A stretch of 64,000 nt of DNA, from positions 25,335,426 to 25,399,425 of the forward strand of contig CP141136.1 in NCBI GenBank assembly GCA_035236585.1, written 5' to 3'. Each line of letters starts with the position of its first letter. Positions within the stretch are counted from its first letter, which is position 1. The notes under the pieces were generated by a model, which saw nothing but the letters and a program-made list of their open reading frames with translations, had not been told where the DNA came from and did not search any database. The translations under genes were made by a program, and so were the position numbers. This document shows, piece by piece, positions 17,694 to 64,000 of the stretch. The DNA is from Warburgia ugandensis. Lineage: Eukaryota; Streptophyta; Magnoliopsida; Canellales; Canellaceae.

Positions 17694-17739
<46 letters not shown>

Positions 17740-19200
17740 CCATATGAGCATATAAAATAACAATATGGGCTACTATGTTGCAGTGGCAACCACATAGGAT
17801 CTAAACCACAGCTGCTCCCTGTCAACACCTAAACGGGAGACTTTCTCCGCCCCTATGGGGAGGAACGGACCCGTAGGGGGGACTACCCATGATATCACCA
17901 CCTACGTAACTAGCCCTGTACCACTCAAGGGCGGTGTCTAATTATTATTATCAAAAGTCAGAGGATGGGTGGCCAACCCTACAACCCTCCTAGTATAGTA
18001 ACCACTGGGTAGAAGCACCCGTCATAAAGCAGTAAAACATGTTATAAATCATAAAAATCTCCTAAGTGAAATAAACCTCAATAGGCTGAATCAAAATACA
18101 TGATAAAGCATAAATCATCACATGTGAAAACAGGGATGATCGTATAATCAAATGTCATGTGATTAAAGTAAATTAATAAACAAATTTAATAAACATAATA
18201 GGGCGTAAAACACCCGCCTCAAGAATTTTAGTAGAGAAGTCATGAAATCAAGAAAAATTCTTGAAACGTAATCACCTACCTCGATAAATGTGGTACTCCA
18301 ATCAGGCACGTGGGCAATGTCACGATGTGCGCTCTGACGTACTTGTCACATCATAAGTCATCTATCACTTGGCATTCCCACATCTAAAAATAAACAAATC
18401 TAAGTGATAACTTCATTGATCTGGTCATTAATCCTGTGTCAACGACCTAGATCGTCTAGTTAACCCTCTATCGGGTCAATCCTATACTAGATGTAGGTTT
18501 TTCTAATATCTAGATAAACATTTATAGTCTTTGATCATCAATTGATGTCATGATCTACTTAATATATGCCCCTTATCCAATAAAGGGTCAGTCCCTACGT
18601 CTCGTGAGATTTGGAGATGATCCGACCGTTGGATCGCTCCATAACATTCATAATTGACATCTAGTCATCAATTCTCACTATTCTTATAATAATCCTTCTA
18701 ATTTTAGTGTTTTATTTATTTATTTAAACATGTCTCCATAATTATACCTCGGTCTGGCAGTCAGAACCAACCCCAAGGTACTTGATCAAACCACGGTCAA
18801 GATTACTTTTCTTGATGATTTAATAAGATATGTTTTTCTAATCTCCTAAATCATCTCACATTCGGTGTATGCAATCAGGTTCTAAGGCCTGCTCATCTAT
18901 TGATCGACTTGATCAAGGTCATCTAATGTTCTTTGGTAATTTAACTATTTAAAAAGTATTCAAATCTAGATTTTTAAGTCAAATTTAGGTCCGCGGCGTC
19001 AAGATGATCACAACGCCCCTTTCGGATTATGATTTAGACCTCTGTAGCTCCACAAATCACATTTTTTTTTTGTGTAAATGTACGACTAAGAAAGTTCAAA
19101 ATAAATATATTGGATCTTAAATTGGACCGCACGTGATGTGCGTGCAGAGTGCACGATCCGCTTGCGCCTGTACCGCTCACTCGTCTCCGCGTGTCATTGC
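17686..19200 (-). mobile_element. Family B LTR fragment left of the duplicated WIP block
   Basis: It matches 63205-64000 and, with gaps, 41541-42157, both inside family B 5' LTRs. It lacks the first part of the LTR and stops abruptly at 19200, where WIP-block sequence begins. In B1 the corresponding LTR continues for another 0.9 kb to its CATTACA-like end at 43074. This fragment keeps about 870 bp (roughly 18000-18880) that is deleted from the B1 LTR. Confidence 0.75.
17695..17740. repeat. (ACAT)n-(AT)n microsatellite
   Basis: About seven ACAT units run into an AT run near the left edge of the B LTR fragment. The matching sequence in the other B LTRs is only CCCTACATATAAATA, so the array grew locally. 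Confidence 0.9.
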
Positions 19201-19269
19201 CTGGAGCGGAATTGTACTTTAGTGTCCCGTAGTTTGGATGAAACCACTTTGTGTGGAAGGCTGAAAGCA

Positions 19270-20225
19270 ACAAAATACAGATAGCAGTGATCTACGCATT
19301 TGGACGAATGCTTGCCTTCAATGTTGAACACATCACTAAAGACTATCTCTTGTTGGACAATTGGCAAGCATTGGATTTGTCGGTGTTTGATCTGACCCGT
19401 TCAACTCATAGCTGCAGGACTTCAAGATAATTAGTTGGATGATTATAATATCATAAAAATCATAATTTTTGGAATAAATTTAGAGTATTTATATATAAAA
19501 ATTTAAAAAAAAATTTTACTATAAAAAATGCGAATTTTTAAGTGCTAGAATTAAGATAAATAAGTCAGATCATTCAAAGGCTAACTCTTTTAAATAGAAT
19601 ACGGACTGGTTAGTGCCAGAATTAAGATAAACCGGTCAGATCATTTAAGGGTGAGCTCTTCCTAGATAGAACATGGGCTATGTTTTAATCTACAGCAACA
19701 ACAGATACTGCTATTAGTGCGAGTTCTAGTTTACTTTTAGCTACTAATTTGAAAAGTTCAATAATTATGATTAAAATAATTTTTAACCAACAGAATTAAT
19801 AGTTAAAAGCATTTTGAGAGAAATGGATGAAAAGTTTAATAATAATAATTAAAATACTTTTCAACTGAGAAAATGAATAATTAGAAGTATTAAAGGAAAA
19901 TTTTGGCAGTTAAAGTGAATAAGATGAATAAAGGCAAAGCATAGACGAAGAGACTCAGAGTCAGAGTCAGAGTCAGTCCCACCCTTGCTTCCCTTTTATT
20001 CATTATCCTTTTTAAGCTGATCTCAACATTCGTCTAACATTAGGGAGTTACACACATTCTGAGTGTCTCTCAGAGCTTGTGTGATAAAAATCTAGCATAA
20101 ACAGAAAATTATTGGAAATAATCATGCCAAAAACTTATCATAAGCATATGTTATTAATCAATCTATAACTGTACAAAATTTTCTTTTTGAGGGATGTTGC
20201 ATCCCTGGTTTCATTTGGGTTTCCC
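19270..20225. other. Non-coding stretch 3' of WIP-b1
   Basis: AT-rich sequence with no gene seen. It holds a short (AGAGTC)n run near 19955-19976. The part next to the stop codon (about 20085-20225, with the phrase ATCTAGCATAAAC) recurs beside WIP-c1 at 23077-23225, so it is probably 3'-UTR/flank shared by the tandem WIP genes. Confidence 0.6.
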
Positions 20226-20513
20226 TCAGTTGGGTCTCCAACAGCTCAAATACATGACTTTCCTCAGCGACTCTTCTGACTGCTTTAGTGTCTCCTCTCC
20301 ATTTCTTCTCTTTGAACACACCAAAGTAGACGCTGAAGAGGAATCAAGGGAGCGAGAGACTCTCTTTGATTGCACATAAGACCCAATACTCTTCTTTGCT
20401 TGTTGATGCAAGCTTCTCAGAGGGTAATTCCATCTGGCGAAGCCTTGATCCTTCATTGCCTCAACCGCTGCAACACTGGTTGCAAAAATCCACGCTTTGC
20501 TTGTTGAACTCAT
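20226..20513 (-). CDS. WIP-b1: small wound-induced family protein (DUF3774)
   Basis: This is a single-exon frame of 95 codons. The N-terminus [30 protein letters not shown], the basic centre ([15 protein letters not shown]) and the terminal block SEESLRKVMYLSCWRPN are the hallmarks of the plant wound-induced protein family (DUF3774, PF12609), whose members are about 80-100 residues. The start is the ATG of the conserved MSSTSKAW. Family members are induced by wounding or stress; their molecular activity is poorly defined. The last block has WRPN where WGPN is usual. A hydrophobic N-terminal segment (residues 8-19) is short for a membrane anchor. A TATA box lies about 123 bp upstream. The product is identical to WIP-b2, which favours both being functional or recently homogenised. 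Confidence 0.92.
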   Translation of the reverse strand: MSSTSKAWIFATSVAAVEAMKDQGFARWNYPLRSLHQQAKKSIGSYVQSKRVSRSLDSSSASTLVCSKRRNGEETLKQSEESLRKVMYLSCWRPN

Positions 20514-20635
20514 CTCTGCACTAATGGGTTTTTCTTCTAACTGTTGACAATTGAAAAGAAGGGGATTTTAGAGTGATGTTTGGCGAGAATTGGTTTCTGT
20601 GTGTTTGTTGATGGATGGAAGTAGAGCTGAAGAGA

Positions 20636-20643
20636 CTTATATA
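20636..20643 (-). promoter_or_regulatory. WIP-b1 TATA box
   Basis: TATATAAG on the minus strand, about 123-130 bp upstream of the ATG, leaving room for a leader of roughly 90-100 bp. A TTGAC core (W-box-like, 20543-20547, plus strand) lies in the leader; a 5-bp match is weak evidence. Confidence 0.65.
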
Positions 20644-20649
20644 CAGAGG

Positions 20650-23225
20650 AAAGGCACAAAACTGAAGGCGTTTCTCTGTAAGAACCAATGGTTTTGAGAA
20701 ACCGGGTTCGTGTTGCTATCTTATGGACAGGCAGGATTTTGGCTTTCTTTATTAAAGGTCAGCTGGTCTTGTCAGTGGTAAATGAGGGGGTAAAATGTCT
20801 TTATCTTAGGAAGTTAGAAAATGGACCATCGAATGGGACCTAATCATGCTTGAATTTGGAAAGTTAGAAGATGGGTGAGCACTAATAGGCTCCTTTTTAT
20901 TTCTTAACAAACCAGTTTGGTAGTTGTCACATAAAGAGCATGGGCTAAAATGGCTAGATCAATGAGAAAGGTGGTTCCCCTGGTCAGTTTTTCAGTTGTT
21001 ATATTCCAACTCAAGATCTGAGCATATACGATACAACTGCACGAGTTTTGAGCACCACCACCACAGTTAAGCGGCTGAGAAATGCTATTTGGACCAAGTT
21101 CAGAGACTAAGTTGGTGACCTCTATGCTTCACCACTGGACGATCTAATCCATTCATCTTCTTTATTCTGCCCAATTTAGCTAGCTGTGAAAATTCATATC
21201 CATTTAATACTTTTAGTTATTAGTTCTCCTAGTAAAAAAGTACTTTAATAATGACCATTAAACTTTTTAACAGAAGGAATTAGAGAAAATTAATAGCTAA
21301 AACCCATTAATGTATGTAAATTTTTGCAGGTAGCCCTTACCTTGTCTAGTAGAGGATGATGAAGATAAATGGATTAGATCATCTAAAAGTAAGTTTTGAT
21401 TGGGGGATCAGCTGGTCAGGGACTGTCCTGAAGCTCAGATTGAATAACATATCAGAGTCTAGCAAGTCTTGAGGTGAAGTCCGTCCGGTTTGGACGAGGA
21501 GAAGAAGAAAAACGAAGAGAAAAAGGAGTGGATGACAGGCCCACAATGTCATGTACTTGATTTGTAGGGGACCTAACTGAGAATAGAATGTTCATTAATT
21601 TTCTTGTGTTTTTCATTGGTACAATATGTTATCCTTCAACTTGAGAATATAAAAATTCATGTACGAGCTGTTACACATTGAATGTGCCTGTCTGTTAGGT
21701 CTAGTAGAGGCTAAATAATAGTGGATCCCGAATTATATGAAATCAGAACCGTCGATCACTAGGTCTTGCTCTAGATGAGGCCTCCTGTATCTGCGTCGTT
21801 TGATGTTCAAATCCATCTATTTTGATGATGGATGTAAAAGTTGGTCCTTATTTTCAGCCTCTTCATTTACGGAAAAAGGTTATTGGCTAGCAATCTTCAA
21901 ATAGAGTTGAGCATTGTCTCATGGCTCATCCATTAGTAATACTCAGGCAATGAATGGTTCCCATCATTAAATAAGTGGGATCCCACTTGTATGGTCAGTC
22001 ACCCATGCTTAAACTACAAGTCTTGCTTATTGCCATTTACCCTCAATAATCATGACTGGTCGAGGGTCTACAAGATCATCCTTTTCTAACATATAATAAT
22101 AGGTTCTACACACAATTAAACCATAGTTAAGGGAGTTTTCTAGGGGCTTAAGTAAGCCCTTCCACTTTGGATTAAAAAGATTAGTCAAGCAGCTCATCAG
22201 TTTGCTTATATACACATATTTCTTCAGAAATCTATTCATGCTCTTGATTCTACTTTTTTTTCCTTCCACCCCATCTCTGAGCTCTTCGACGAAATTTATT
22301 CATGTTCTTGATTCTACCCATTTTTTTTTTCACTGCTGGCCCAATTCATTGTTGTCATTCCGTAAAAAGGCTGTTCCGTTGAAGCAAAAGCTAAGTTTGA
22401 ATGCACAGGCCACAAAAACCCGGTCCAAGACACCGACTGAGCCAGTGATTTGGTTGGCAGACCAGCAAGCCACCTAATGGAACATACTCAAACAATCCGC
22501 ACTGTTTTAAGATCAGTAGTGATCAACAACAAGGAAAATCAGATGAACGGCTGCGATCAAACAAAACCGGGACCATTATGATAAAGTGGGGCCCAGGAAC
22601 CCACCATTGTGTGCTTTCCGCAGGACAATCTGAAGATCACAAGGTTGTCATCTTTAAATAAACGGTTGGACAAACACTTGTAACTTGTGTATAGTCTTTC
22701 CTTGGACAATTCTAGCCATCGATGTTTGTGGGATTCCGTTGATGATTCTAAACATTTGGACTCAAGCACTTAGCCGTGTTGGTTTCAAGTGTCCTCTCGG
22801 CGACCTTTTCAAGTCCACCATTTGTCTAATAAACAACTAAACCTTCAAAAATGATTCTTGCCAACAGTTGACCAAAATTGGATTATCTTAAGAGATTACA
22901 TTATATTGTAAGTGTCCCTCTCAACTGCCCCAATCCAATGGTTGGACACATAGATGGAGTTGAACTTTGGTTCAGATATGACTCGTTTTGTATCGGGTTA
23001 AGATCAATGGTTTAGATCATATCTCCTCCAATCTTCGTCGGCTATTAGCATTCGTCATGTAAGAGCTCGTGCCGTGAAGATCTAGCATAAACTGAAAAAT
23101 TAAGGCAAAGAAAACTGGGAAAAATTATGCCAATAAGTCTACTACAAGTATGTCTCATTAAACAACCTATAACTATATACAAAATTTTCTTTCAAATTGC
23201 ATCCCTGATTCCATTTGGGTTTCCC
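20650..23225. other. Intergenic region between WIP-b1 and the WIP-c1 fragment
   Basis: About 2.6 kb holding the WIP-b1 upstream region and the 3' side of WIP-c1. No coding frame, LTR edge or RNA gene was recognised. The short open frames (22027-22269, 22202-22477, 22557-22769) have no family features and mostly lie in sequence that is equally conserved out of frame in copy 2. Confidence 0.55.
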
Positions 23226-23322
23226 TCAGTTGGGTCCCCAGCAGCTCAAATACATGACTTTCCTCAGCGACTCTTCCTACTGCTTTAGTTTCTCCTCGCC
23301 ATTTCTTCTCTTTGAACACACC
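23226..23322 (-). pseudogene. WIP-c1: C-terminal fragment of a DUF3774 gene
   Basis: The minus strand reads [14 protein letters not shown], a stop, then EESLRKVMYLSCWGPN and the terminal stop. This is the last third of a WIP protein, with the canonical WGPN ending. A stop replaces the serine of QSEES. The 5' part is missing because family B LTR sequence begins directly at 23323. Copy 2 (48872-48969) is cut at the same point but lacks the premature stop. Confidence 0.85.
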
Positions 23323-23885
23323 ATATTTTAATTTCGACGTTACAAACGATAAAACTCAATGGAAATAACCCAAAAATGGAGAGGGAAAAAGAGAACGAGG
23401 GTCTACCTCATTCAGGTTGGCCGAAGGGGAAGAATCCGTCGCACATGCGTAAGGTGGGTGAGCTGCATTTGCCGGCGTTAGGCGTCCTTGTTGATGCACG
23501 GAAACGGAGAGGAGAGTTATGGTGGGGAGAAAATCGAGACCAGCATTAATTGGAGGGAGGCGCATTTAAAGCCCCACGTAATGGTTGTAAATTCGTGGAT
23601 TGCAGCGCCCAGTCCGTGGGCCCCACGCAAATTTACATTTCTACCCCTCATGCTTAATTTATTTAAATACAGAAATTAAAATAATTAATCATTCTTCCTC
23701 CGATCTTCCATTTTTGCGTTCTTAGTGGTGTTGGATTTCATTTCTCGAGCACATTACAATTATTGAGGTTTTAACTCAAGATTCTATTTCCAAATTCTAA
23801 TTTTCTCAATTTCTTAAAAAAATTTAATTTCCCATAATTCTGCAAAATTAAATATTTCTTGAATTTAAAGATAGCGGATATTACA
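23323..23885 (-). mobile_element. B1 3' LTR, truncated
   Basis: This 563-bp piece matches the right-hand end of the B1 5' LTR (from about 42566 to 43074) and ends ATATTACA like it. The rest of the LTR is missing and the junction is with the WIP-c1 coding sequence. The same truncated junction at 48970 shows that it pre-dates the duplication. Confidence 0.8.
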
Positions 23886-24266
23886 TAATACCTATATTAT
23901 AGAAAATTTCATCCTCAAAATTCTTTCCATGTCATTCCTCAACAATTTTAGAAACATCCCCATATCATAAGACCCATATATAGTATCATCATTTCAGAGT
24001 AAAATGTCAATAAACAATTTTATGTCATATTATTTCCTCAGATAACAGCTCATACATATAAACCAATATATGTTTCAAACCATTCTGAATCATATACTTA
24101 TATTGTGTTTAGAACACATCATAACCACATATAATGTAATTTACATAAATTATACTCTCATCTAAGAGTTAATCATTACATCTTTAGCATAAGTAAATCA
24201 CCATGTCAACAAAATTGAAGTGTCACAACTCACGTATAGGCAATTCTATATCAAATCCATTCTAAC
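23886..24266 (-). mobile_element. B1 internal region, 3' end segment
   Basis: Just inside the LTR the minus strand reads NFEDEIF (about 23905-23927), the decayed end of Ty3/gypsy pol. The segment continues as in B2 (49534-49908) until it is broken at 24262-24266 (CTAAC) by an inserted family A LTR. It resumes at 35277. Confidence 0.75.
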
Positions 24267-24868
24267 TATAATGACTCAAACATTTTATGCTATTTTGGCA
24301 TCAGTTTTACTAAATTGATAGAAATTGATTAAATTGTATATAGAATTAACTATATTAAATATTATATTTTAATTAAAATATGAAACCAAGAAATTTGTGA
24401 GAAAAATCAATATCATTAGATTTTACACTCAAAATGGAATCCAACATATTAAAGAATACTGAAAACGGAGCTCCTATGACCAAGTTATGGACGTTTAAAG
24501 ATCAAGGGCAGTCTTGTAATTTGAACTTAAAAACGAGAAAGATTGAAAAACGCAGGGGGTTGTTTTACTAACGACACCCCCAGGTCATCTACCTTCTCCG
24601 ACTCTGAGCTTCCAAAGATTGCCTCTATAAGGCAGTGCTTGAAGAAATGACAACACCGTCATTCGGTAGCACTGCCTTCGAAGGCTATAAAGCCCTCTTT
24701 CCTCTTTCCTCTTTCCTCTTTCCTCTTTCCTCTTCCCTCTCCTCCCCGACCATTCCTTTCTTCTCCTCCTTCTCTTCCTCTTCCGGCTGCAACACAGAGT
24801 TTCGACGACATCATAACAGGAAAACTCTTATTCCACTTCTCCCATATTTTTCGGCACCAGCCCCAATA
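24267..24868 (+). mobile_element. Plus-strand family A LTR, left piece (host of element A2)
   Basis: It starts TATAATGACTC, one change from the family A start TGTAATGACTC, and follows that LTR for about 600 bp, including the TATA motif CTATAAAGCC at 24685-24694. At about 24868 it meets minus-strand family A LTR sequence. Its other end is at 34289-35276. The flanks CTAAC (24262-24266) and CTAGC (35277-35281) look like a 5-bp target duplication with one change, and B2 has the empty site CCAAC at 49909-49913. Confidence 0.75.
24694..24744. repeat. (CTCTTTC)n short tandem repeat
   Basis: About six copies of a 7-bp pyrimidine unit directly downstream of the LTR TATA motif. Confidence 0.9.
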
Positions 24869-27609
24869 TTTGGGTGAGTATTTCTCATATCCAATAGGTG
24901 ATCTGAAACTACTATTTTGAAAACATGATAGGCAACATGCACGAGTCCAAGAGCTTTTCATGTAAAACATTAGTGATTTCTTTTTATGTAAACATGCCGA
25001 TTTATGCATAAAACATACGCCCATAGATGCAATTTCAATCATGGAATCCTTTACCGAAATCTAGTATTCAATGATATAAATATGACCAGAATCATAAAAT
25101 AGAAATCAATAGATTCATGAAGATCTCGACAAACACATCAAACCAGTGAGTCAAATGTAATAATCATGAAACTCTTAAAATAGTCATCATGTAAGCAGAT
25201 GCTGATATTACTATAAGTATCATGCTCATGGTTTCTCGGTTTTGTTCCCACCACAGGCTGACTCCTTCGACGATCTGCCCACTTGAAACTCAAGCTGATG
25301 AGTCAGTAATCATACCAAATCAACTGGTCACAAGTACTCATTTATGCATCTCAATACTATATGCATATCAATACAACCGAAATCATAGAGCTAACTATGC
25401 TCACAACCAGAACACCTCTGAATCGTGTGTCTCCGGTATCTAGAGACCAGTCCACCATAGCCTCCACGGCAACTATGGATATGTCCTCGAAAGGGTGCCG
25501 TGAACACCTCCAGTGGTCGTCTCTGTTTACCACAGCAGTCAAGGAAGGGACAATGCCATTTTTGGCAGTGATACCATTCACCTTTTTGGTGGTAGAGGCC
25601 GGGAGGCCAACCTCGTACATACACAACCTCTCAACATAGTGCCCACTAGGCTTAATAGCCCCAAAAAGCATATATAGATAAATCCAAATCTCAATCATCA
25701 AAATCATGCAATTTATGCATTGATTTGCAAACCATGCGAGCGATGCATAAAATCAGTTCATGCTGGTATTGCATTTAATGTCATAATTCATAAAGACAGT
25801 TCTGCAAGCTTGTATAAGAACATCACATCTCGAAAAGCATACTAAATACGGTGATAGAGTCAAGTGCTTCAAGGACATAAATCATGAAGACAAGTTCGCA
25901 TACTCGCATAAGAACATCATATCTTAAAATCATGCTAAAAATGGTAATAAAGGCAAGTTAGAGTTTAAGATGCATTTAAAAACTTCGTAGTATCAAACTA
26001 CCTACCTCGATGTCTCTGGAGTCGCGTCCTTTACTATTCGACCCTAGATCACTTTTATGAAACCTTGGATATTAATGGATAACAAGGATTCAAATATCAT
26101 TTTCTATCCACTAATTCGAATTATAGCTTAATGGCTAGATCTGCCTTTTAGGTAATTGCTTAGGGTGTCTCTAGGCTAGATCTTATGTATCATGCTAACA
26201 TATAATGATTAGATTGCCTTTAATCTCTTTCATGTCATCAAGATCGTGTAATTGAATGGTCAGATCTCTTAGTCAAACCTCCTAGGTCGCCTGTCCTGAT
26301 GCTTAGAATAGGTCTGTACTTAATTTGGATAGTCAAACCTATAAGTTCAAGGTGGATGTATGTAACTTAGAGTGGAACTAGGCCTATTGGTCTCCTAATA
26401 GACCCAACAAATCAATTTATGAAGTTTGATCATCTTTGATCTTGTAGATCTATGTAATCTCTATAGTGTTTAGGCTGCAGTCATACTAAATAGGCCTCTA
26501 ACTCTAAATTTTATAGTCTCATTAGGTCCATGTCATCAATACGGATGCAACGGTTCTTTCGGATCATCAATCGGAGTCCTACAGCCCCTGTAATTGCATT
26601 TTTAATGTCGCAATGTCACACGCGAACCAGATTCGTCCACGTGGGCCCCACACGTCATGGTTCTCAGGACGCTCGTATGTTTCAGTTAAGCCGGGACTCT
26701 GTCCACACACGACGTTCTAGCGGGGACTGCCCCAGGGAGCGAGTCCTGCATGTGTGTCACGCGGTGCGTCCCCGTGACATTCTGTTTTGATAGGTTTCAA
26801 AGGAAACCCGTCTTCTCTGGTTTTTGACGACGTTTTCCCCAGTCGAGAAAGCCTAGATTCGGCATGGATCTGGACTGGGAAAAGGGGAAACTAGAGAGGA
26901 AAGAGTGGGGGGCTTACCTGGGTGGTTTGGACAATGCCCATCGTTGGAGATGGCGCCCTTTTTCCAGTGGTGCAGCTCCCTTTTTCATTTGCCTAAATCC
27001 CAGATTGCCAAAAAACACGTGGAAGGGGAAAACCCATTTTTCAGTGATTCCAGGTGAAAAATGGGGAAGAGAAGAGAGGGGAATGGGTCCTTACCTGATC
27101 AGCTTGAGATGGCTCCCATCGCCGGTGATGCGGCCTATTCTACTCCTAAAACCTTAGTTGCTGGGTTTTTGGGTGAAGGCAAATGGAGAAACGGATGACT
27201 GAGGAGGAGGGAAGAGGGCTTTTTATAGCATTGCGAAGGCTGTGCTGTGCACCGCCTAGTTAGAGGAAGAAGACAATGACGCGGGGGGGGGGGGTGTTGT
27301 TATCAAAACGACCCCCTGCATTTTCAGTTCCTCTTGTTTTAAATTCATTTTACAAAATGCCCATCATCTTTAAAAGGTCATAACTTAGTCATACGAACTC
27401 TGTTTTCAGTGTTCTTTGAGGCGTTGGATTCCATTTTGAGCGTAGAATCTAATGGTGCTAATTTTTCTCCCAAATTCCTGCATTTTATATTTTAATTAAA
27501 ATAAAACATTTAATATAGTTAATTCTATATAAATTTTCAAATTAATCAATTTCTCTCTCAATTTAGTAAATTTGATGCAAAAGTAGCGGCAAATGTTCGA
27601 GTCATCACA
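24869..27609 (-). mobile_element. A2 3' LTR (LTR-3, truncated at its left end)
   Basis: Family A LTR of 2741 bp ending CATCACA. It lacks about 400 bp that LTR-4 has at 31221-31620, so the junction with the plus-strand LTR at about 24868 is a deletion or rearrangement point. It carries a G-box at 26638-26643 and a TATA box at 27219-27228. A G-run (27282-27293) lies between the TATA box and the left part of the U3-like region. Confidence 0.8.
27219..27228 (-). promoter_or_regulatory. LTR-3 TATA box
   Basis: CTATAAAAAG on the minus strand, in the shared family A position. Confidence 0.6.
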
Positions 27610-28849
27610 TCATTACCCCCTTCAAAGAATTTCGTCCGCGAAATTCCACAAATTGTTACCTTTAAGTCATCTGTCTTCTTGATGGACATATTTTTCTTGA
27701 GGACTCCCTTAGAACTTCGAACTAAGAAAATTCCTTTGCTTCATTTCATTCTTCTTTTGTCTAATAGTCTATTATTCTGTCATCCAATACTCCAATTGGG
27801 TTAATAATTAGAGTAATGTTGTCCTTAAAACTCTGTTCATACTATCTTGTAACCAATCCTAGGCACATTCTCAATTTATCATCTTTATAATTCCTTCTAC
27901 AAGGCCTCACATATAAAACGTCAGTATATCTTATCTGTTTACTTTAAGTATATAAGGGCCGCTTTTGGTGCTTACTCTGATACATATTCCCATACTTGCC
28001 AGTTTAACAATACCGGTTTATAACAATAGTTTGTATAGCTACGAATCCTTAGGTGCTCATACTCCTCTAATCATATATAGGATAGTCTCATCAGATGACC
28101 ATACTCCCCTACTCATCTATAAATTACTCCATACTTCTCTGAGATCATATCATCTTATTTCTCATATTCCATTTTGAATAGCATGGGATAGTCTCATTTT
28201 TTTTTCTTCTTCTTATCTTCCATTTAGTGATCTTATTCATCATCAACGTCTCCTTCTAAAGGTTGGCTATATGTTCTTAGTAAGAGTCCCAAAAAGGTAC
28301 ATTCTTTCTATTATATCTAACTTTACTTCTTATCTTCTTTGCTTTATATTTTTTCCCAAGATACTTCAATAGCTAATATGGTATCATGTGTCCTCCAATT
28401 ATATCAATGATAAAAGCCAAACCCTTGATTAACTTCGAATTTCAACTGTCTGTCGTTTTCCATATGTGACTTGATTCCTCAACCAAAGTTTACATTCAAA
28501 ATAAAACCATGAAAGCCAATCGAGTAGCATCTTCCATCAATGACACTATCATGTACTGAAAGTAAAATGTCCTAACTATATACTCAGTTTCATAATTATT
28601 GAATCCATCAAATGCTTTTCTCCTTGAAGAATTTATCCGAACTCATTTCAAATGTTAATGGTCGATTCATCATCATAGGTCGAATGTTCTCGTCCAAAGG
28701 CCTATCTCACTATCCACATAAAATTGTCATTAGGATTTCCAACAATATTCATACTCATGTGAAAAGTCTCTTATCCATAGCAGAGTACCCTTGCTAGGTC
28801 ATGATTGAATCCTTTGCCATTATCCTCTTTATCCTTTCCTTGCTTGATG

Positions 28850-29010
28850 ATTTTCTTTGTAACCTTTCAGACCAAAAGTTCTATACTCGATCTAGTAAAG
28901 TTAGTCCTTAGGAAATTCATTCAATTGATTTTTGTACTTGGTACGTGCATATAACAACTAACTTTTTGTTCAAAGGAAATTTAATGTTAGATATTACCTT
29001 ATAGTGTGCT
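28850..29010 (-). pseudogene. Integrase remnant of A2
   Basis: Position and sequence match the integrase relics at 828-1028 and 8590-8760, with further small indels. It is kept as a separate entry because it shows the same element anatomy. Confidence 0.4.
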
Positions 29011-29837
29011 GACTTCCTAGCTTTTCTTTTTTCATTTCCTCTTTCGATATATTGTGCAATCTTTCATCAAGGCTTTATCGTCAACCATTTATCATAAGTA
29101 CAGATTCTCTCAATTCCTCAAAATTTATCTTTCAAGTGCCTCCTCATGCTTAGCTTATAACAATAATTATCATTCAATAGCTATCATATCAATTGTCCTA
29201 AAATTTGTTAAATCAACAAGTTTGAAAAACACTCAGGTAAGCATGGAACATTTTCTTAGATATAAAAAGAGAATTTATTTGATTATTTGTCGATCTCTTT
29301 CCAGATATATAGGTTATAAGCTCAAAGGTCTCTAAAGTGATCGGTGCTTAACTGCCTTTCTTTTCAGTCCAAGTCAGTAGCATCTTTCAGACCCAAAGTG
29401 ACCTCTACAGCTTATCTATCAAGGTCTGGGAAAGTTTTGTCATTGGTTTAAATCATTTCTCCTTGTTGCTTTTGTCTCATTGCTACTGTATTCATTGTAC
29501 TCATAGCTCTTCCATGACGTAGTTTAATTAATTGACCTCAGACCCTCAAATGACTTAGTCTAACAAGTAACTTTTTTTGGGGAAAACTCATGTCTAAGTA
29601 CTTATAACATCCCTCTTAGTACATAACTTAGACTACTATCTCATAGATACTAACATATCTGATTAATTAGGGTAGGATACCTTTATTCAGTCAGCATTAC
29701 TCCAAAGGTAATGATTAAATAATGGATTTAAGATACTTGCTCTTCCAATCTTCCTCTATAATATCAAGACATCAAATTGATCCTTGATGATACCCTAATT
29801 GCTGAAAAACAAATGGACAAGTCGTTGTCCTAGCTTG

Positions 29838-29945
29838 TTTCCTTTTTCAATATAACTTTATTTAATCATATAGTGGCAAGGTAGGATATCATCAACTTTT
29901 CCTTTTTATGGGCTACATCCACTAGTGTTCCTCATAAGCTAATGG
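29838..29945 (-). pseudogene. Reverse transcriptase remnant of A2
   Basis: It carries the same block as A1 (the minus-strand equivalent of VHKKEK ... LNKV), flanked by the same non-functional sequence. No catalytic YxDD box was found downstream. Confidence 0.5.
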
Positions 29946-31206
29946 ATCCGATAAGATTCTAATTGCAACAATTGATATAGACATCAAACCACTTGTAGAA
30001 TTTAATTTCTAGTTGATCACCATTCTTCTTCAAAAATTTCTTGCAGCATAATGTCCTTAAATTCGATACTCTACTCAAAGTCTTAAATCCCGTATGCTTT
30101 ATCTCTATTATACTATTTTACAATAAAATCACCAACTCAACTATTATTATTCCTTCAAATTTGATTGGTTTATCTTTCCATATGATTCAAGATGAAAGAT
30201 TTGTATGTATCTAATCTTTCCTTAATAAAGTCATGATCTTCTTCCATTGAATATTCAATATTGATCGAATACTTATAGTTGCATCTCTATCTCTCTTTCT
30301 CTTTTCTTCTTATTTGGTCAAACCCTCCTTTCGTCCACTAAAATCAATGTCTCCATTTGATTTGTTACATCTAATCAATACTACATCCATTCTTTTGACC
30401 AATAGTTATGATAAACTAAGGACTTTCAAGAAATGGTAAACTTTTCTAATATCATAAGAATCCTTAATTGTCTGTATTCTCAATAAAATTTTACAATGTC
30501 TTAACAAATTTATTAACATCTTATGCCTACCATGCTTCCCTTATATGTTCATGTCATAATCATTTGATTATCACAGATCTATCATCCCCATCAAATTTAG
30601 CACCAAAATCTTCTAATAACTCTGTTATAATCAAATTCTTTATCGTTCTTATCAGATTCAGTCTTTTACATCTACTGTCATATTCAAGTTATATTCCTCT
30701 TAATATAATAAGTCAATCATTGTGCTTATCTTCTGATCTGCTCCATTATACTCAAGTTGTCATTATAAGATAGCAGTTCTCTTTTCGCAAGGTTCTAATT
30801 AAGTCATCCAGACTTGAGCCAAGTTCTTGAGGATTCCTACTTCTTGGGGATTCTCACTTTGATTGATCTACTACAAGTCAAAGCTATCTACTAAAGACTC
30901 TACTAGCACTACTTTGTATCTCCATTCCTTATTCTCATCATAGTCTTATTCTCATACACTACTTTGTTTGCACCATTGTATGACAATCATTAATCCCTTT
31001 TGTAAGGATTTGAGCCATCAAATACCTAAGTATTCACTAGATCTGTCTCCTTTGCACCTAGTTATGTGGTGTCTTTTCTTTGTCATATACTATTATTTCT
31101 TATTTTTTTCACTCTTACTACGTATATTTAGACTACTTTCTCTTAATTATTCTGGTCGTATATGACCTTTGGACATGCAGGGCTGGCTGTGAAAAGATAA
31201 AACTAA

Positions 31207-31218: not shown

Positions 31219-31220
31219 AC

Positions 31221-46272: not shown

Positions 46273-46279
46273 CAGAGGA

Positions 46280-53960: not shown

Positions 53961-53965
53961 GTATC

Positions 53966-54290
53966 AAAAGTACCTTTCTTCTCATTGCAATCAACTGTCC
54001 TCCAACAATAGAATCCATCCCAAGGATGATATCATAATCCCTCAAATCGAGGACAATAAAGTCAATATCTATCCTCTCACTTACCATCATTTCCACCAGT
54101 ACTCGTTAGAGGTACTTACAAGTTTCAATAACTTGCCAACCAGTATCATAACCTCCAACCCAAAGATCTTTAAATACATATAAGGCACATTCATCAGGGT
54201 GCCAACACTCAAACTACAAGGGTGATTGGATCCTAAATCAAGGAGGATCTTGGTATATCTATCAACAATCAAGAAGGTACCTTCCTTAAC
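53966..54290 (-). pseudogene. Retropepsin (aspartic protease) remnant of B2
   Basis: Two blocks in different frames. At 54087-54272 the minus strand has ILLDLGSNHPCSL, in the place of the catalytic VLIDSGSTHSFIS; DSG is changed to DLG. At 53966-54085 it has DFIVLDLRDYDIILGMDSIV, matching the C-terminal ILGMDW block. The frameshift near 54085 and the lost active-site serine make it non-functional. Confidence 0.7.
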
Positions 54291-54901
54291 TTGGGTTGAG
54301 GTTAATGCTTACTTCAAGTAATGATAATGACAGTCAAAAGCATGGTTTGCATATAAATGTAAAAACATCATAACGAATCATCATTACAAATGTGGGGCCA
54401 TCTCTGCCCTATCACCAATGTTAGTCAGTTTGACTCATTGTCCACTAGGACAGTCTCTAAAGGAATATCTTAACTTTCCATAATCAAAACATTTAAAGGG
54501 TTGCCACTGTGATGGCTGCTACTGATGCCATTACCACTGCTGCAGTGGTCCACTAACTCTAGGACGTAGTTGTCCAGGTATCTCTCCTTACCACTAGTAC
54601 ACATTGTGTCTCTCTTCCGTATCCCAACACTGCCCGATCAAATGTCGTTGGCTTAATGGCCTCTGCAGTCATGTTAATGAAAGGTCTCTTACCCTTATTA
54701 GGCTGACTCGAACTACCCATGTTCGAGTTTCTGCGATCAGTCTTGCCCTAAAAGGATCCTTCTTTGCATAGAGGTAATGTCTGCTATCTCACAACTAGTG
54801 TAGAATACGACACAATCATCTGATTCATCAATACAACTGTCAACATATAACAATCTATCCATGGTCTCCTTCTTCTTGGTGAAGGAGTTAGGGAAAGTCT
54901 T

Positions 54902-57763
54902 TGTAATATCCTTAATTTTTAGTATAAAATAGGAAATTATTAAATAAATTAAAATAAAAATTTATAAATGGAAATTTTTTCTGAAAACATAAGAATTAGA
55001 AAGTTCTCGTCAATACGAGTCCAATGCCACCAAGAACGCGAAAAACGGAGCTCAAACGAGGGAGTTATGAGTAGTCGAAGTTGTAAGGGCATTTTGGTCT
55101 TTTGACAGAGACGTGTTACATAGGGGTCCAAATTGATAACGACACCCCTGTCTTCCACACATCTCTACCAGTCCGACGAAATCCCCGGAGAGACGTGGAA
55201 AGAGACACGTGGGGAAGAGTTTCTCTTCCCCTACGACTCTAAACCCTATATCTATTCTTCCTCAGGAGCCAAAACGCTCCACCTTGAGCATTTCTTTGAG
55301 TTTTTTAACTTAGAACCTTAACCCCGCAAGATTTGAGTTTTTCGACGAGTCAAACCCCGGCAATACGAGCAACCACGGCTAGGCATAAGGTAAGCCTTAA
55401 AACTCTGTTTTTCATATTTATTAAATAGAGAAAATAATTAGAAAACCATTTAAAAATTAGGAAAAAATCAGATTTTTTTGGGAACTCTGTGCACGCTACT
55501 GTTGGAGTGTGATTTCATGGATAAAACCTCTTCCGTTTGAAAATCTCACTGTCCAACTAGTGCACAAGAGACCCAAGAGCAAACCCGTTAAATTTGGGAG
55601 AGATCCAACGGTGGGTTTCTCTAGAAAACCCAAAAACCAGTACCTAGGGATGTTTTTAGGACCTTGAGAAAAATCGTTTAAAAAACATAGTTTTTGGAGA
55701 AATCAATGCAAAAGGATGATAAAAATGGAAACTAGACAAAATTTTGAATAAAATGGCTCAAAAACCAAGTGATTTGGACACTTGTAGGGTCACCGGAGAT
55801 GACCGGAAGCCGTTCGTCTTCTCAGGCGCCGGTTTTCGCGTCGCTGGTGTAAACTGGGCTGCCTGTGTAACCCAGTGTAAACTGGGTGCAAGTGTAACCC
55901 GGTATAAACCGGGGCCGCCAGTGTAACCCAGTGTACACTGGGCGCTGGTGTAACCCAGTGTAAAGCAGGCCTGCTGGTGTAAACCAGTGCACCCGCCCAA
56001 CACCCTATAAATTAATAAATATTAATTTATGAAGTATTTTCACTTAAAATTGATTTTTGGGAGCTAGAGGAGTCCAAATCATGATCCGAAAGATGCGTTG
56101 TGACTGTATTGATGACGCGGACCTAGTTTTACTTAAAAACTTATAAATGACCACTTTTTATTTAGAAATTTTTTTTAAATAGTGATGTGACATGTACAGG
56201 TGCACTTGAATATACCGGTTAAAGGGAGTTATTAGCAAGCTAGTGGTCTCACACTGAGGTAGGTGACGACAATTAATGCTTTGCCTTGATTTTTAAACTA
56301 TGTTTAAATATAGCATCATGTGTGATTGTGTTTTAAATTGCAATTATTATTTGCCATGGATTTCATGCGACTTTGAGTACAGTATGATTATTCCAAATTG
56401 AAATCTTTTATTGAATAAACTTATTTATAAGCATGATGTTAATTAGTTATGCTTAAATAGAGACTTATTTATTATTATATATATAGGAAGTGCATGGATT
56501 TACAGGGAAATAAGAACAGGGGCTTATTAGCTGGTCCTTTTATAGGCTAACCCTAGGATGAGGGGCATGTCTTGGGGAATTCGAGCTATGAGTGCTCTTG
56601 AATTTTAGCATCTACATATGATTTTCGTGTTTTATTTGATGACGGGTGCTCTCGCCCGATGGGCGTCATGCTAGGAGGGATAGGGCCGGCCACCCACCTT
56701 CTGAGATTGTGATGTGATGATATTGTGATGTGATAGACACCAGCCCATATATGGCATTCGGTAGGGGTTTAGTAACATGGATAGTTCACACTACCGGTCT
56801 GAGCCTTTCCATGGGAACAGACGCTAAGTCTCCCGTTATGGTGTCGACGGAGAGCGGCGGTGGTTGATACCCATTGAGGGTTGCCACTGCAGCATGATGG
56901 CCCATATTCTTATTATGTGTGCATGTATGATGAGCATGGTTATGGATGGTATGCCTGGGTGTGACGACACTCAGAGGTTGACTACGAGTACTCATAATCA
57001 GGGATGTTAGTGCGATGTGGTGGGACCCATTATCTTAGGGTGCCCTTATTATTATTGTATGCTCATTTACATTGATTTATGTCATGTTTTGACTCTGTGA
57101 GATGCATGTTTTAGCATATGGAATAAATTGGCATTTATTTGAACATGGCATTATGATATCACTATTTTCATAAATGTTAGACTTTTCATCAGAGCTGTTC
57201 ATTATTTCTTTTATTTATTACATTAATTGTCTATGTACCTACACAGGCGATAGCTTGCTGAGGCATTCCTTTGTTTTGCAATGCCTTAGATCTTGAGCGC
57301 GACACCAGGAAAGGAAAAGCTATTGAGAAATCGTGAGAACTGCTGAAGACTATTTTTCCTATAGTTTTAGACAGTGATGTGAGTCATTAAAACATGATTA
57401 TCATTTGGATTTAATTATGGACTGAATACTTTATGTTTTGGATTTGATTGAGGTGTTTGGACATATGCTGGACATTTATATGAGATGTTATGATGGATAG
57501 ACCTTGGGCCATGTTATTATTGTATTTTGAACATTCATTTGATTTAAAATAAAGGTGCCGATTTATTTAACATTGATTGATACGCGTATTGTTTTATTTA
57601 TATGTATGCTGTTTTGAGAAAGGAAAAATAACACTCGGAGTTTTAAGATATGTTTTAGCAAACGGTTAAATAAAACTTTTCTCATGAGATCCCAAATTCT
57701 CTTATTCAAAATGCCATTATTATTATTTTAAAAAAAAATGTCTTAAAAATCCAGGGTGTTACA
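54902..57763 (+). mobile_element. Solo LTR, plus strand, second insertion in B2
   Basis: Runs TGTAATATCC...GGTGTTACA (2862 bp), flanked by GTCTT (54897-54901) and GTCTC (57764-57768), a 5-bp target duplication with one change. B sequence is continuous across it. Its ends resemble family B LTR ends in reverse orientation, but the body is distinct and includes a palindromic minisatellite (55847-55992). Short frames within it (55744-55926, 55758-56003) are minisatellite read-through. Confidence 0.85.
55847..55992. repeat. Minisatellite of palindromic units (about 28 bp, 5 copies)
   Basis: Each unit is built on GTGTAACCCAGTGTAAACTGGG with a variable 6-8 bp spacer. Within units CCCAGTG and CACTGGG are inverted. 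The unit at 55927-55942 is a perfect 16-bp palindrome (CCCAGTGTACACTGGG). One unit has shifted both arms together (CCCGGTATAAACCGGGG). Confidence 0.9.
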
Positions 57764-57774
57764 GTCTCTTCAAC

Positions 57775-57900
57775 TGAGTATACTGGTTCAGTACTGTTGA
57801 ACCATCTAATTCTTCTCTTCAAGTGGCAAACTCCCTTAGTTTTCAAAAATACTAATTATCACAGGCCTTCCCAAGGGCCTTCTAGATAAAAGTCTCAGCG
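57775..57900 (-). pseudogene. gag-like remnant of B2
   Basis: The minus strand reads FIRRALGKACDN, then KLREFAT and DGSTVLNQYTQL. The spacing resembles the plant retrotransposon gag block F..FLxKYFPxxxRxxKxxEFxxLxQGxxSVxxYxxxF. Stops interrupt it. Position between the primer site and the protease fits gag. The match is short, so this is tentative. Confidence 0.45.
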
Positions 57901-59130
57901 ATACAGGAACACATCTTCTCAATTAACCATCCTTAAAATCCTTGTAATTCTATTTTCAGTGTCCTCACTTCCACTATTTCACTTTCTTGAACTAATGAAT
58001 TATTTCATGGTCATATCAATCAAAATCATTTACAACTCTATTTATTTCACACCCAAAGAATTTTACCTTTATAATACTTCCTTAATCATCAGAAACCACA
58101 CTATCATCTTTGTCAGTGTTGGATGTAAATCCATCATAATTATCATCTCGCCTCATTCACTTTGTATGTTTTTCTTTCTAGTTGATTTATTACAAAATCA
58201 TTTCTATTCAAGAATTATTCTCACAATTTAGTCATCATGTCCTCCAAGTAATATGCACTTCAAATCATAATTAAAACCTAAAAACAACTTGTAAGTATTC
58301 ACTCCCCACTAATGTCTGATATCAATATTTTTATAAGCGCAAGAACTCATTAGTTTTTATCTCACCTTATTCTCACAACAATATTCATTCTCCACATCAA
58401 CTTCAATAAATATCTCTCCCCACTTGATTCACATCATTACTACTAACTATTATCTCCTTCAAGTACTATGTGTCTCTAATCGTATTTGAAAATCCTCAGA
58501 ATGATTTATAGACATTTACTTTTCATTAATGACTAGCTTTCAACACCTCTTTATACACTAAACTCACTAGTTTTCGTCTCAAAATCAAATATTTCATCCA
58601 TATGAACACTAGGATCTTATTTCATTAATTTTCAATGATTTTACCCATACTACAATTTATTTGTCACTTAAATTTGCATCAAGTTTAAATTAATACCATA
58701 CTTCTTTCAACGTTCTCGCATTCTCATTAGTTGTAATCATTTTTGATCATCCATCATTCTTATCATACTATTGTTATTACAAAAATTGTTAGGCTTTCTT
58801 GAACTCTCAAAAGTGAATCATATAAATATATCTGCTATTATATAATAAGGTTCTCACTAAGAGAAACCAATTTATAATCTTTATTCTGATTCATGATTCT
58901 AAGAATCGTGCACTTCCCATAAAAGTGTACCTCCTTGTACTCATACAATGACTTAAAAGTCCCAATTTCTTTAAGAAAGTCTGTAAATCATCATGGCATT
59001 ATCTATTTTACAATCATCAACATCCCTCAAATGAGTTATCTTTGTAACTCATATTTAGGAAACCACCTCACTTAATGGATTGTATGTGACCTTTGAATTT
59101 GTTGGAATGGATGTGATGGAGTAGACACAG

Positions 59131-59142
59131 GCTTTGATGCCA
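59131..59142 (-). promoter_or_regulatory. Primer-binding site of B2
   Basis: The minus strand reads TGGCATCAAAGC, two changes from TGGTATCAGAGC, three bases from the LTR start at 59146. Confidence 0.8.
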
Positions 59143-59145
59143 AAC

Positions 59146-62100
59146 TGTGACACCCCGGGATTTAACAACAATATAATAATAATTTATAAAAATAGTCGGG
59201 ATCCCTGTTTTAAAAACTTTGATTTTTAAAGTAACAAAAAAAAAACTTAAATAAAAGCATTTCTTTCAAAATCTGGGGAGTCATACAACCACAAAACTAC
59301 AAATTTAATGGTGAAATGAAATACCATTTCTACCAAAAATACGACAGAGTCTCTTTTGTATTTTTGGATCATTGCACATGACCAGTGCAATACAAAATAA
59401 TCTGATAAACATAATATAAGACATGACATATAGGAGACTCAGTCTCCACACCCATCCACACAATCAACTACTATTTTCAAGAAAATATATACTCCAACAA
59501 TGGATAAGAAAATTAAGTCATGACAAAATCCCAGGGTCCCTCCATTATGACGACCTTTTAATGCAATATCTAATTCCTTGGGCGGGATGCATCCCAATTT
59601 GAAAACCATTTTATAAAAACAATGCAATGAAGCGGAAAAATCTTTTCTTTTAAACTCATTTTAAAAACCCTACGTGTCATTTGCTTTTATAACAGACAAA
59701 GTAGTTTTGAAAATTGTTGTAATCATAAAAGTCTTCCCAGGTCTATCCAGTCATAGCTCATAGCCCAATTGTAAATAAATACAGATACATGTCCAAAATT
59801 GTAGAGTATTTACTTACATTAATGCTTGTCTTCTCTTCATTCACTTGATCGTAGCACTATCATGTTTCTGATGCTTCTTCTACTTTTGTTTTGAGCTAAT
59901 TTGGAAAAATAATATATTAGGGTGAGTATTTCTCATACTCAGTAGGCGATTGATACTACTATTTTGAAAACATGGTAGGCAACATGCAGGATTCCAAGTG
60001 CTTTTCATGTAAAACATCAGTGATTCTTTTTGTGTAAGCATGCATAGTTATGCATAAAACATAAGCTTATTGATGCAATTTCAATCATGAGTCCTTTCTC
60101 ATAATATAATATGATCAAAATCATGAAATAGAAATCAATAGATCCAGATACGAAAATCTCATCAAATGCATCAAACCAGCGATTCAAATATAATAATCAT
60201 AAAACTCTTAAAATAGTCAACATCAAGCAGATGCTAGCATCATGCACAATTAGTCTCTCGGCATTCACGTCATGCCAACAGGTCACGAGTACTCGTATAC
60301 GACCACCTCAATACTATATGCATATCAATAACACTGAAATCATAGGGTCACTATGCTCATGACCAGCACACAGCTGACTCGTGTGGCTCCGGTATCTAGA
60401 GACCTACCCACCATAGCCTCCACGGGACTATGGTTGTCCCCGAAAGGGTGTTGTGAGCACTTCTAGTGGTCGTCCCTCTTTACCACAATAGTTAGGGAAG
60501 GGACAATGCCTTTTTGGCAGTGATACCATCCACCTTTTTGGTGGTAGAGGCAGAGAGCTCAACTCGTACATAACAACCTCTCAGCATAGTGCCCACCGTG
60601 GACTGCCTTATCCCTTAATCTGCCCACTAAAAAGTATATATATAGATAATTCCAAATCTCATATATCATAAAATCATGAAATTTAGGCATTTGTTTTCAA
60701 AACATGCAAGAAATGCATAAAGTCTGCTCATGCCAATAATCACATTCAAAGCCATAATTCCATGTGCTTGTACAAAAACATCATATCCCAAAAGCACGCT
60801 AAACATAGTGATAGGTTCAATTGCTTTAAGGCCATGAATCATGAAGATATATCCACGTACGCATATAAGAGCATCATATTTCAAAAAGCATGCTAAATAC
60901 AGTAATTAAAGCCAAGTAAAGCATTCAGCTTTGAAATGTATTTGAAAACTTAGTAGTATCAGACTACTTACCTCGATGTTTCATGGAGTCGCGTCCTTCA
61001 TTACTCAACCCGACCTTGGGTCTCCTTTATAAAATCCTATATAGCAAAGATTCCACATCATTTTCTTTCTATTTATAATTCACTATTTAGACCTCTAGAT
61101 TAATGGCTAGATCTGCCTTTTTTGTCAGACTGCCGGTCCTGATGCTTCAAATGGGTTTACATTTGACTTGGATAGTCATATCTATAATTCAAGGGTTATG
61201 AGATTTCTAGAGTTTTGGGATCTAATCATGTATAATAGTCCTCTGATCCTAATTTTTATAGTCTCATTAGGTCCGTGTCGTCATTACGGATACAATGGTA
61301 CTTTCGGATCATCAATCGAAGTCCTACAACTCTTGGAATTGCATTTTTAGCGTTGCACTATCATAGACGAACCAGATTCGTCCATGCGGCTCTGCGCGTC
61401 ACGGTTCCCAGGACGCCTGTGCGTCCCGATCGAATAGAGACTGCCTCACATGTGCACGCATGCCTAAGCTACGTGCTGCAGCACACATTCGAGAGAGTGT
61501 CGAGCGAGCACGTCCTCAGCGCCAGGCGCGTGTCTCGACTCCCGGAACACCCCATGCGTCCCAATCTAGCCAGGACTGCGCCCGCACGCTACACGAGCTC
61601 GACTGTCGCCCCCAAGGAGCTCGTTATGGGCGCACGTCATGCTCGTGCTCCCCTAAAACACGTCGTCTCGCCACGGGAGCGCGTTACGCCCGTGCGCACC
61701 TGGGACAAGGTGTCTTCAATGGGTTTTCAACCCATCTGGTTTTTCTCTGGAAATTCGGTGATTTCAGGCCAGAAAACTAACTAGATCTGGTCAGGATTTG
61801 TGGGAAAAGAAAGAGGGAGAAGAGAGGGAAATGGGCTTACTTGGGTAGCCGGAAATGGCGACCCTTTCTCCATGATGCGGCTCCCTTTGTTGCTGGAAAA
61901 CTCGAAGAAGGGAAAAACCCATAGTTCCGGTGCGACCATAGGAAGAAGGGGCGGGAAAGAGAGTGGAAAGGACGGCCAGCCCAAAGGAAGAACCTGGGCC
62001 GGTTCTGGAGATTGCGGAGAAGCTAGAGGAGGGTTTTTAGTTGAAAAAGTTGCAGGAACCCTAGGGCATGTAACGGCCAGAAAAGATGGGGAAAAAGATA

Positions 62101-64000
62101 ATCGGAGAGAGAGGGGAAGAGGGTTTTTGTAGCTCGCGAAGGCGGTGCCGTCATTGTTACCGCCCTACAGAGGCGGTGGTGGAAGCCTCTGGAATGTTGG
62201 CTAGAGGAGGAAGAAGATGGGGGTGCCGTTATGAAAACGGCCCCTACGTTTTTTTGCCTTTTTCGTTTTTATATATAAATTACAGAAATGCCCTTTATCT
62301 TTAAACGCCCGTAACTTCTTCATACAAACTCCGTTTTCGGTATTCTTTGAGGCGTTGAATTCCATTTTTTGAGTACAATCAAATGATACTAATTTTTATT
62401 ATAAATTCCTTTTTTTTACTATTTTAAATAAAATAAAACATTTAACATGGTTAATTTCATATAGAATGTCCAATTCATTTTTGTAATGGATGCAAAAATA
62501 GCGTAAAATGCTCGGGGCATTACATCCATACAACCATCACATCCAACATGAATTCATATTCTTACCTCTAGGTCACATTGCAATTTTAATTAAAGTATAG
62601 TTCATATTCAAAACCCAAAGTGAGGTCTTGAACAAACCATGTCATCTCTGAACATCTTCAATGCTTCATTGGGAAACTGCCATCACTTTTACCTACTCTA
62701 TCAATGCATCAACCTGTTGTTACTCTCTATATCTGAGGCATTGCAAGCTATGCTTGTATAGGTGATTACAAGAAATAAAACATGCAATAAACACTTGCGA
62801 AGTGTATCAATATCATGTCAAGTATCAATAGAGTAAATCATTTATAAGGCAAATAAAATCATCAGGCGTTCATAATGCAAAGCTCATGAATCTCATAAAT
62901 CTGAGCGAAATAATCAGGATCAAAATATGCTCTTCATCTGAGGCAATGCAATATCAAAGCAAAACATCATGGCATGCAAGGCATGATCAAAACATAGATG
63001 AGCATCTATCAAACACAATAAGAATCTATGTCCACATCGAAATATAATGCATATCATTATAAAACAGGGCACCGTACAAAAGCAAGCCCTAAGAGCATTC
63101 CACGACACTTGAACATTAGTAATGAGTACTCATACCAACCCTGGGTCCCTCCCGTGCAGCCCGCATCAGCCCCCGAAGTCACTCACGGCTTAGGCCCGGC
63201 TTACCCTGGTTCGCCCTACATATAAATATCATATGAGCATACAGAATAACAGTATGGCCTACTATGCTACAGTGGCAACCACACAGGATCTAAACCACAG
63301 CCGCTCCCTATCGACACCTAAACGGGAGACTTTCTCCTTCCCCATGGGAAGGAACGGACCCATATAGGGGACTACCCATGATACCACCACCTACGTACCT
63401 GGCCTTGTACCACTCAAGGGCGGGTGGCCAACCCTACAACCCTCCTAGCATAGTACCCACTGGATAGAAGCACTTGTCATAAAAGCAACAAAACATGCTA
63501 TAAATCATTGAAAACTCCCAAGTGAAATAAACCTTAATAGGCTGAATCAGAATACATGATAAAGCATAAATCATAACACGTGAAAACATGGATAATCATA
63601 TAATCAAATGTCATGTGATTAAAGTGAAATAATAAACATGTTTTAATAAACACGATAGGACGTAAACACCTGCCTCAAGAATTTTAATGGAGAACTCATG
63701 AAATCAAAGAAAATTCTTGAAACGTAATCACCTACCTCGATAAATGCAGTACTCTAATCAGAAGCGTAGACAATGTCAAGCCATGTGCTCTGATGTACCT
63801 GTCATATCATAAGTCATCTATCACTTGGTGTTCCCACATCTAAAAATAAACAAATCCAAGTGATAACTTCATTGATCTGGCCATTAATCTTGAATTAACA
63901 GCCCAAATTGTCTAGTTAGCCCTCTATCGGGTCAATCTTGTACTAGATGTAGGTTTTTCTAACATCTAGATGAATATTTGTAGTCTTTGATCATCAATTT
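59146..64000 (-). mobile_element. B2 5' LTR (runs off the window), interrupted by a solo LTR
   Basis: It starts TGTGACACCCCGGG and matches B1's LTR at 37230-38212 and the LTR fragment at 17686-18550. Family B sequence occupies 59146-59545 and 62530-64000. It has none of the element D insertion and keeps the segment deleted from B1's LTR. Its end is beyond the window. Confidence 0.8.
59546..62524 (-). mobile_element. Family A solo LTR in the B2 5' LTR
   Basis: On the plus strand it runs TATGACGACC...GGCATTACA (2979 bp), flanked by perfect 5-bp duplications TCCAT (59541-59545 and 62525-62529). B1 has the single TCCAT at 37625-37629. It defines the true ends and length of a family A LTR. The TATA position is mutated (CTACAAAAAC, about 62123-62132). 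The GC-rich section (61370-61700) is longer and more diverged than in the other copies. Confidence 0.9.

Follow-up and report, generated by a model that had tools for sequence, protein, structure and literature searches.

A seven-unit array of wound-induced protein genes and a retroelement in Warburgia ugandensis, with probable exchange between gene blocks

The two repeated blocks of wound-induced protein (WIP) genes in the window, that is, in the whole 64,000-base stretch of DNA that was analysed (C11:25335426-25399425; the genome comprises 1.12 Gb in 14 contigs), represent the third and fourth units (U3 and U4) of an array of seven. The best explanation for this array, and one that we consider likely, is exchange between the gene blocks themselves, including a step in which a superblock of three units was duplicated. 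An earlier note on the same DNA had described a two-copy duplication of 25.6 kb; seven units were found instead, and trees of segments of the old retroelement between the blocks (element B), together with shared insertions, indicated that U3 and U4 are not sisters.

Results

Unit map of the array

The unit map was obtained by tblastn and blastn over 229,425 contiguous bases of assembled sequence around the window, in which N was absent throughout. Coordinates are relative to the window, and negative values or values above 64000 lie outside it (Table 1). The top self-match of the window was a direct repeat between 19200-24266 and 44829-49913, with 95.5% identity over 5,098 columns; the repeat reported earlier at 19199-24261 and 44827-49908 was therefore real, and its ends were refined. 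Seven WIP blocks (U1-U7) were found head to tail over approximately 168 kb, with spacings from U1 to U7 of 25.1, 30.2, 23.9, 25.1, 30.2, and 29.8 kb. Element B was present in all six gaps between the seven blocks, and the array both begins and ends with a WIP block. None of the seven B pieces searched was found in the outer flanks, over 29,383 bases to the left of U1 and 32,382 bases to the right of U7. U1 has no LTR on its left; where U4, U6, and U7 have the LTR end, it joins a different flank. The locus thus has the head-to-tail units, the unique flanks, and the hybrid junction unit (U4) of a tandem array grown by unequal crossover, the breakpoint within the hybrid not being sharp. The earlier prediction that a WIP-a-like gene would follow beyond 64000 was borne out by sequence at 68243-69565 that is 94.3% identical to the U4 copy; it starts 4.2 kb past the window edge and contains an open a frame at 68499-68783.

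Table 1. Coordinates of array features, relative to the window
Feature	Position	Strand	Basis or remark
Unit starts, U1 to U7	-36041, -10962, 19201, 43075, 68192, 98409, 128211		Local deletions make these points not strictly homologous
WIP block of U3	19200..24266	+	95.5% to 44829-49913; seven-unit map
WIP block of U4 with 5' LTR remnant	43075..49908	+	Holds WIP-a, WIP-b, and WIP-c remnant
WIP-b of U3	20226..20513	-	95 aa, intact; PF12609 E 4.6e-30
WIP-b of U4	45855..46142	-	95 aa, intact; PF12609 E 4.6e-30
WIP-a of U4	43785..44074	-	Frameshifted; two tblastn pieces
WIP-c remnant of U3	23229..23327	-	Codons 63-95, one stop; tblastn
WIP-c remnant of U4	48875..48973	-	Codons 63-95; fusion to B LTR at ~48974-48978; tblastn
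5' LTR remnant, U3	23332..23885	+	71% to 42569-43074; LTR position 3162-3646
5' LTR remnant, U4	48978..49533	+	LTR match; LTR-end sequence at 49533
3' LTR part, B between U2 and U3	17731..19201	+	LTR positions 1179-2429 of the C11:40.69 Mb copy
Rest of B between U3 and U4	35281..43074	+	Interior remnants and 3' LTR; own insertions/deletions
B right of U4	49534..64000	+	Interior, 3' LTR from ~59174, nested insertions; LTR runs to ~68191
Nested A-type insertions in B	24267..35280	.	Site 49908/49909; junction sequences
Nested insertions common to U4 and U1	51388-53961, 59546-62524
Nested insertion, private to U4 among units compared	54901-57762		Site 54900
U3/U4 near-identical tract	19585..22577	.	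14 mismatches in 3,000 columns; U4 end of the rows 45408-48204

Element B and its LTRs

Element B is interspersed in the genome: a search with the initial 1.5 kb of its interior yielded 1,999 first-look candidates, and 36 of the 40 that were scored lay outside the array. Long direct terminal repeats were found in one genomic copy, at C11:40.69 Mb, in which repeats of approximately 3.65 kb (83% identity over 3,741 aligned columns) enclose an interior of approximately 3.5 kb and the LTR end, ...TTACA, is clear. Six stretches from other B copies contained four frames of at least 120 aa, the longest being 174 aa, and no Pfam match was obtained for the two of these four frames that were scanned.

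In the array copies, the 5' LTR is down to about its last 0.5 kb, which lies inside the repeated WIP block. The proposal that B with its 5' LTR follows each block thus held for B itself but not for a full 5' LTR. The LTR sequence farther to the right is that of the 3' LTR, and the B LTR fragment noted before the first block is present but also belongs to a 3' LTR. Three positions, 23885, 43074, and 49533, carry the LTR-end sequence, against 0.01 occurrences expected by chance; at 43074, the B copy lying between U3 and U4 has the end of its 3' LTR, against the WIP-a flank. The stretch 17728-18890 matches 63217-64360. In the U3 unit, B is interrupted after 24266 by other insertions and resumes at 35281.

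The A-type insertions at 24267-35280, 51388-53961, and 59546-62524 have inverted-repeat-like ends, TGT[A/G]A[C/T]GAC... and ...GTCGTCACA. In U6, the stretch 27185-27956 is present in at least six copies at 111635-117620, in steps of approximately 1.03 kb, within an A-type element. Elsewhere, a perfect TC dinucleotide run of 44 copies occupies 10014-10101 of the window.

WIP genes

The three window proteins all scored above the PF12609 cut-off of 27.3 bits (104.9, 58.3, and 104.9 bits), and the WIP genes were assigned by this Pfam match to DUF3774, wound-induced protein. WIP-b was found in all seven units and is doubled in U1 and U6; its coding sequence does not differ between U3 and U4 at any of 288 bases. 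WIP-a was found in six units, being missing from U3 and frameshifted in U4, where the first ~52 residues lie in one frame and the remainder in another; the 75-aa frame matched PF12609 with an E value of 1.6e-15. WIP-c is kept as codons 63-95 in U1, U3, U4, and U6, and in these units the junction with the LTR is alike, the LTR remnant adjoining codon 63. Open frames were present in 14 a or b copies across the array. The pN/pS ratio was 0.17 for a versus b (45 pairs), 0.79 among a copies (10 pairs), and 0.58 among b copies (36 pairs), which suggests that the older a/b divergence was constrained and the recent divergence little constrained.

Sister pairs and the three-unit superblock

U1 and U4 were paired in all eight of the B-linked segment trees that held both, with support of 100 in all but one, in which it was 99. 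U2 and U5 were paired with support of 99 in the sole segment containing both, and U3 and U6 were paired with support of 99, 80, and 97; in the LTR3 tree, U3 joined two U6 copies at 74. Comparison of the sequence to the left and right of 43 kb gave ordered matches offset by 76-87 kb, with lengths of 10.4, 8.5, 8.3, 7.8, and 6.6 kb and identities of 92.7-95%. The insertions at 51387, 59545, and 64360 were present in U1 and U4 and in none of the other units scored, and the deletion of 47265-48065 has an identical joint in U2 and U5. The insertion at 49908 was present in U3 and U6, with its right edge also in U2 and U5, and was not present in U1 or U4. Five insertion/deletion markers of this kind are mutually compatible.

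Distances over three B pieces were 0.047 for U1-U4, 0.066 for U5-U6, and 0.085-0.094 for the remaining four pairs. From these distances and the compatibility of the markers, it was deduced that the U1/U4 lineage probably split off first and that U2/U5 then separated from U3/U6, before the superblock step. A three-unit superblock appears to have been duplicated, giving the pairs U1-U4, U2-U5, and U3-U6, and it follows that the two blocks in the window are not sisters. Against a simple superblock, U2 is nearer to U1 (1.6%) than to its sister U5 (3.3%) at the left end of the WIP block, and the c tail groups U1 with U3 and U4 with U6. We read both of these as probable exchange after the superblock step.

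At 19200 in U3, the LTR position corresponding to 42157 is joined to 44829 through a 2-bp CC overlap. This joint had been taken, at 19199, as a junction of unequal exchange; instead, it is that of a deletion in U3 that removed WIP-a, since the sister unit U6 retains both the LTR end and WIP-a. The same retention implies that the loss in U3 came after the superblock step.

Hybrid structure of U4

The B copy to the left of U4 is the sister of the last B copy of the array, and the B copy to its right is the sister of the first. The left end of U4 (43422-44000) groups with U7 (support 82) and with U7 and U6 (support 100), apart from U1, U2, and U5. Informative sites, at which U4 agrees with either U1 or U7 but not with both, numbered 193. 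In 43050-43849, U4 agrees with U7 at 67 sites and with U1 at 13, and in 43850-46425 it agrees with U7 at 62 sites and with U1 at 51, with no sharp crossover point; the tree of 44000-44828 had supports of 24-52 only. U4 therefore looks like a hybrid with a U7/U6-like left end and a U1-like right side, which would place the crossover inside the WIP block rather than in the B LTR. One such crossover would turn an array of four blocks and three B copies into one of seven blocks and six B copies, as seen.

Near-identical tracts

At the edges of their near-identical tract, U3 and U4 diverge by 4-7% on the left and by 9-13% on the right. U1 has the tract too, at 0-1.2% from U3 from about 20896 onwards and with no differences in 21886-22971; past 22971, U1 and U3 differ by 2.4% and, further on, by 8-16%. 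Slow evolution fails to explain the tract because U6 is 2-8% different over it. Flanked by more divergent sequence, the near-identical tract thus appears to lift the overall identity of U3 and U4, in the pattern that gene conversion leaves. Their 95.5% identity might be read as a sign that the two units arose recently as a pair, but such an origin was rejected because the identity is a patchwork. A recent mobile-element insertion was also considered as the source of the upstream tract and was rejected because the tract is also in U6, where it is 2-8% diverged.

The longest concordant runs were 29 (U3/U4) and 58 (U3/U1) of 335 variable sites. In four of the six pairs (U3/U4, U3/U1, U4/U1, and U1/U6), none of 2,000 permutations reached the observed run, as compared to 1,607 of 2,000 for U3/U6 and 335 of 2,000 for U4/U6. 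The combination of a long concordant run, non-sister copies, and diverged flanks is that of interlocus gene conversion, and a double crossover fits equally. In the non-sister units U1 and U6, 2.7 kb containing both WIP-b copies are 98.6% identical (-33713 to -31034 and 100475 to 103158). The WIP-b double copy is common to these units, as would be expected had an exchange carried the duplication from one to the other.

Near-identical sequence was then counted over unit pairs in 250-bp windows with at most 2 mismatches, the 3' LTR end not being counted. Such windows made up 32 of 344 in the WIP segments (2 of 81 in a, 10 of 149 in b, and 20 of 114 upstream of c) and 0 of 137 in the five B segments. 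Eight of the 32 belonged to superblock sisters (six to U1/U4 and two to U2/U5) and 24 to other pairs. If B has a higher mutation rate than the gene blocks, as may be the case, near-identical windows would be scarcer in it for that reason too.

A paralogous locus

On C12, an unamplified locus (C12:65.125-65.145 Mb) shows collinearity with the sequences that flank the array; it carries a PHD-finger gene (86%), an a-like gene, a broken b-like gene, and an e-like gene (86%). Four B pieces gave no match in these 20 kb. The locus is presumably the whole-genome-duplication partner of the array, and it would fit a pre-amplification state of one a-b locus lacking B. Additional PF12609 matches on the plus strand were observed beside the array (C11:25.52-25.55 Mb) and beside the C12 counterpart (C12:65.18 Mb).

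Discussion

We propose that a single ancestral WIP locus, with a and b and with relatives to its right, would have been duplicated on C11 and that one B would have come between the two copies, its 5' LTR remnant becoming fused to a broken WIP-c. Misaligned WIP blocks could then have amplified the "WIP block + B" module by unequal crossover to four blocks and three B copies (U1, U2, U3, and U7). A larger unequal crossover of U1 with U7 inside the WIP block would have duplicated the three-unit superblock, yielding U1-U2-U3-U4 (the U7|U1 hybrid)-U5-U6-U7. Later events would have been the deletion of WIP-a from U3, a frameshift in the WIP-a of U4, and short exchanges, by gene conversion or double crossover, that kept WIP-b and its upstream sequence nearly identical between some units. 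We infer that the first duplication preceded B, and likewise how the early steps were ordered, where exactly the crossover fell, and any selection on copy number.

Unequal exchange, as the earlier note suggested, is supported, but its placement in misaligned B LTRs is disfavoured. On that account, a tandem duplication of 25.6 kb, joined at 19199 and 44827, would have resulted from exchange between B LTRs. It would accord with the presence of B between all neighbouring units and with the predicted gene to the right, and it could have operated in early steps once several B copies existed. However, the sisters are U1-U4 and U3-U6 rather than U3-U4, WIP blocks stand at both ends of the array, U1 has no LTR on its left, and U4 appears to be a hybrid within its gene block. 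Furthermore, near-identical windows are absent from the B segments counted, and the joint at 19200 is that of a deletion with a 2-bp overlap. We therefore regard exchange between B LTRs as unlikely.

Replication-based copying by template switching, without any crossover, could have built the whole array with the same present anatomy, and tandem segments offset by 76-87 kb could arise either way. The mixed identity of the left and right sides of U4, however, follows directly from a crossover between homologous blocks, and template switching is considered very unlikely. It is highly improbable that the array is an assembly artefact, with haplotypes placed side by side or a repeat misjoined, since the units are approximately 4-14% divergent beyond the converted tracts, have insertions and deletions of their own, and lie in 229 kb without N. 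Exchange between gene blocks is thus retained as the probable explanation. It is one locus, with independent markers, and these indicate that the genes rather than the LTRs were the substrate of unequal exchange. The case also illustrates that 95% identity between neighbouring blocks can reflect conversion and not recent duplication.

In satellite higher-order repeats, multi-unit blocks are duplicated together and homogenised by exchange. The WIP array resembles them in both respects but differs in having units of 24-30 kb, protein genes, and only seven copies. The process is already known in kind and is unusually legible at the WIP locus. The cited parts of a study of maize alpha-zein clusters describe tandem gene amplification over ~100-200 kb with transposable elements and broken copies, for which its authors propose unequal crossing over (PMC3121756). 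The array and these clusters are alike in that members of a plant gene family stand in tandem, interspersed with transposable elements and broken copies. The WIP array differs from the alpha-zein clusters in that the retroelement is repeated within the unit and in having a three-unit superblock, none being seen in the cited parts of PMC3121756.

The array also shows how copy number can rise in three-unit steps in a family linked to defence and, through its Pfam name, to wounding. Arabidopsis members of DUF3774 have been linked to low oxygen (At4g10270, hypoxia). Silencing of wheat Tae-WIP reportedly raises susceptibility to powdery mildew, according to the cited part of PMC10489981; Tae-WIP belongs to the same Pfam family as the WIP genes of the array, of which 14 a or b copies have open frames. 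The wound-responsive gene named in the cited part of PMC2890015 is At1g21610, which is not equated here with the DUF3774 family. No comparable array of this family appears in the cited parts of PMC10489981 or PMC2890015.

A recombination hotspot upstream of WIP-b (~20.9-23.0 kb), through which genes and promoters would stay identical while the retroelement spacers drift, is put forward as a rather doubtful possibility. If it is true, a stress-gene array would evolve like a satellite higher-order repeat, with exchange steered to the gene.
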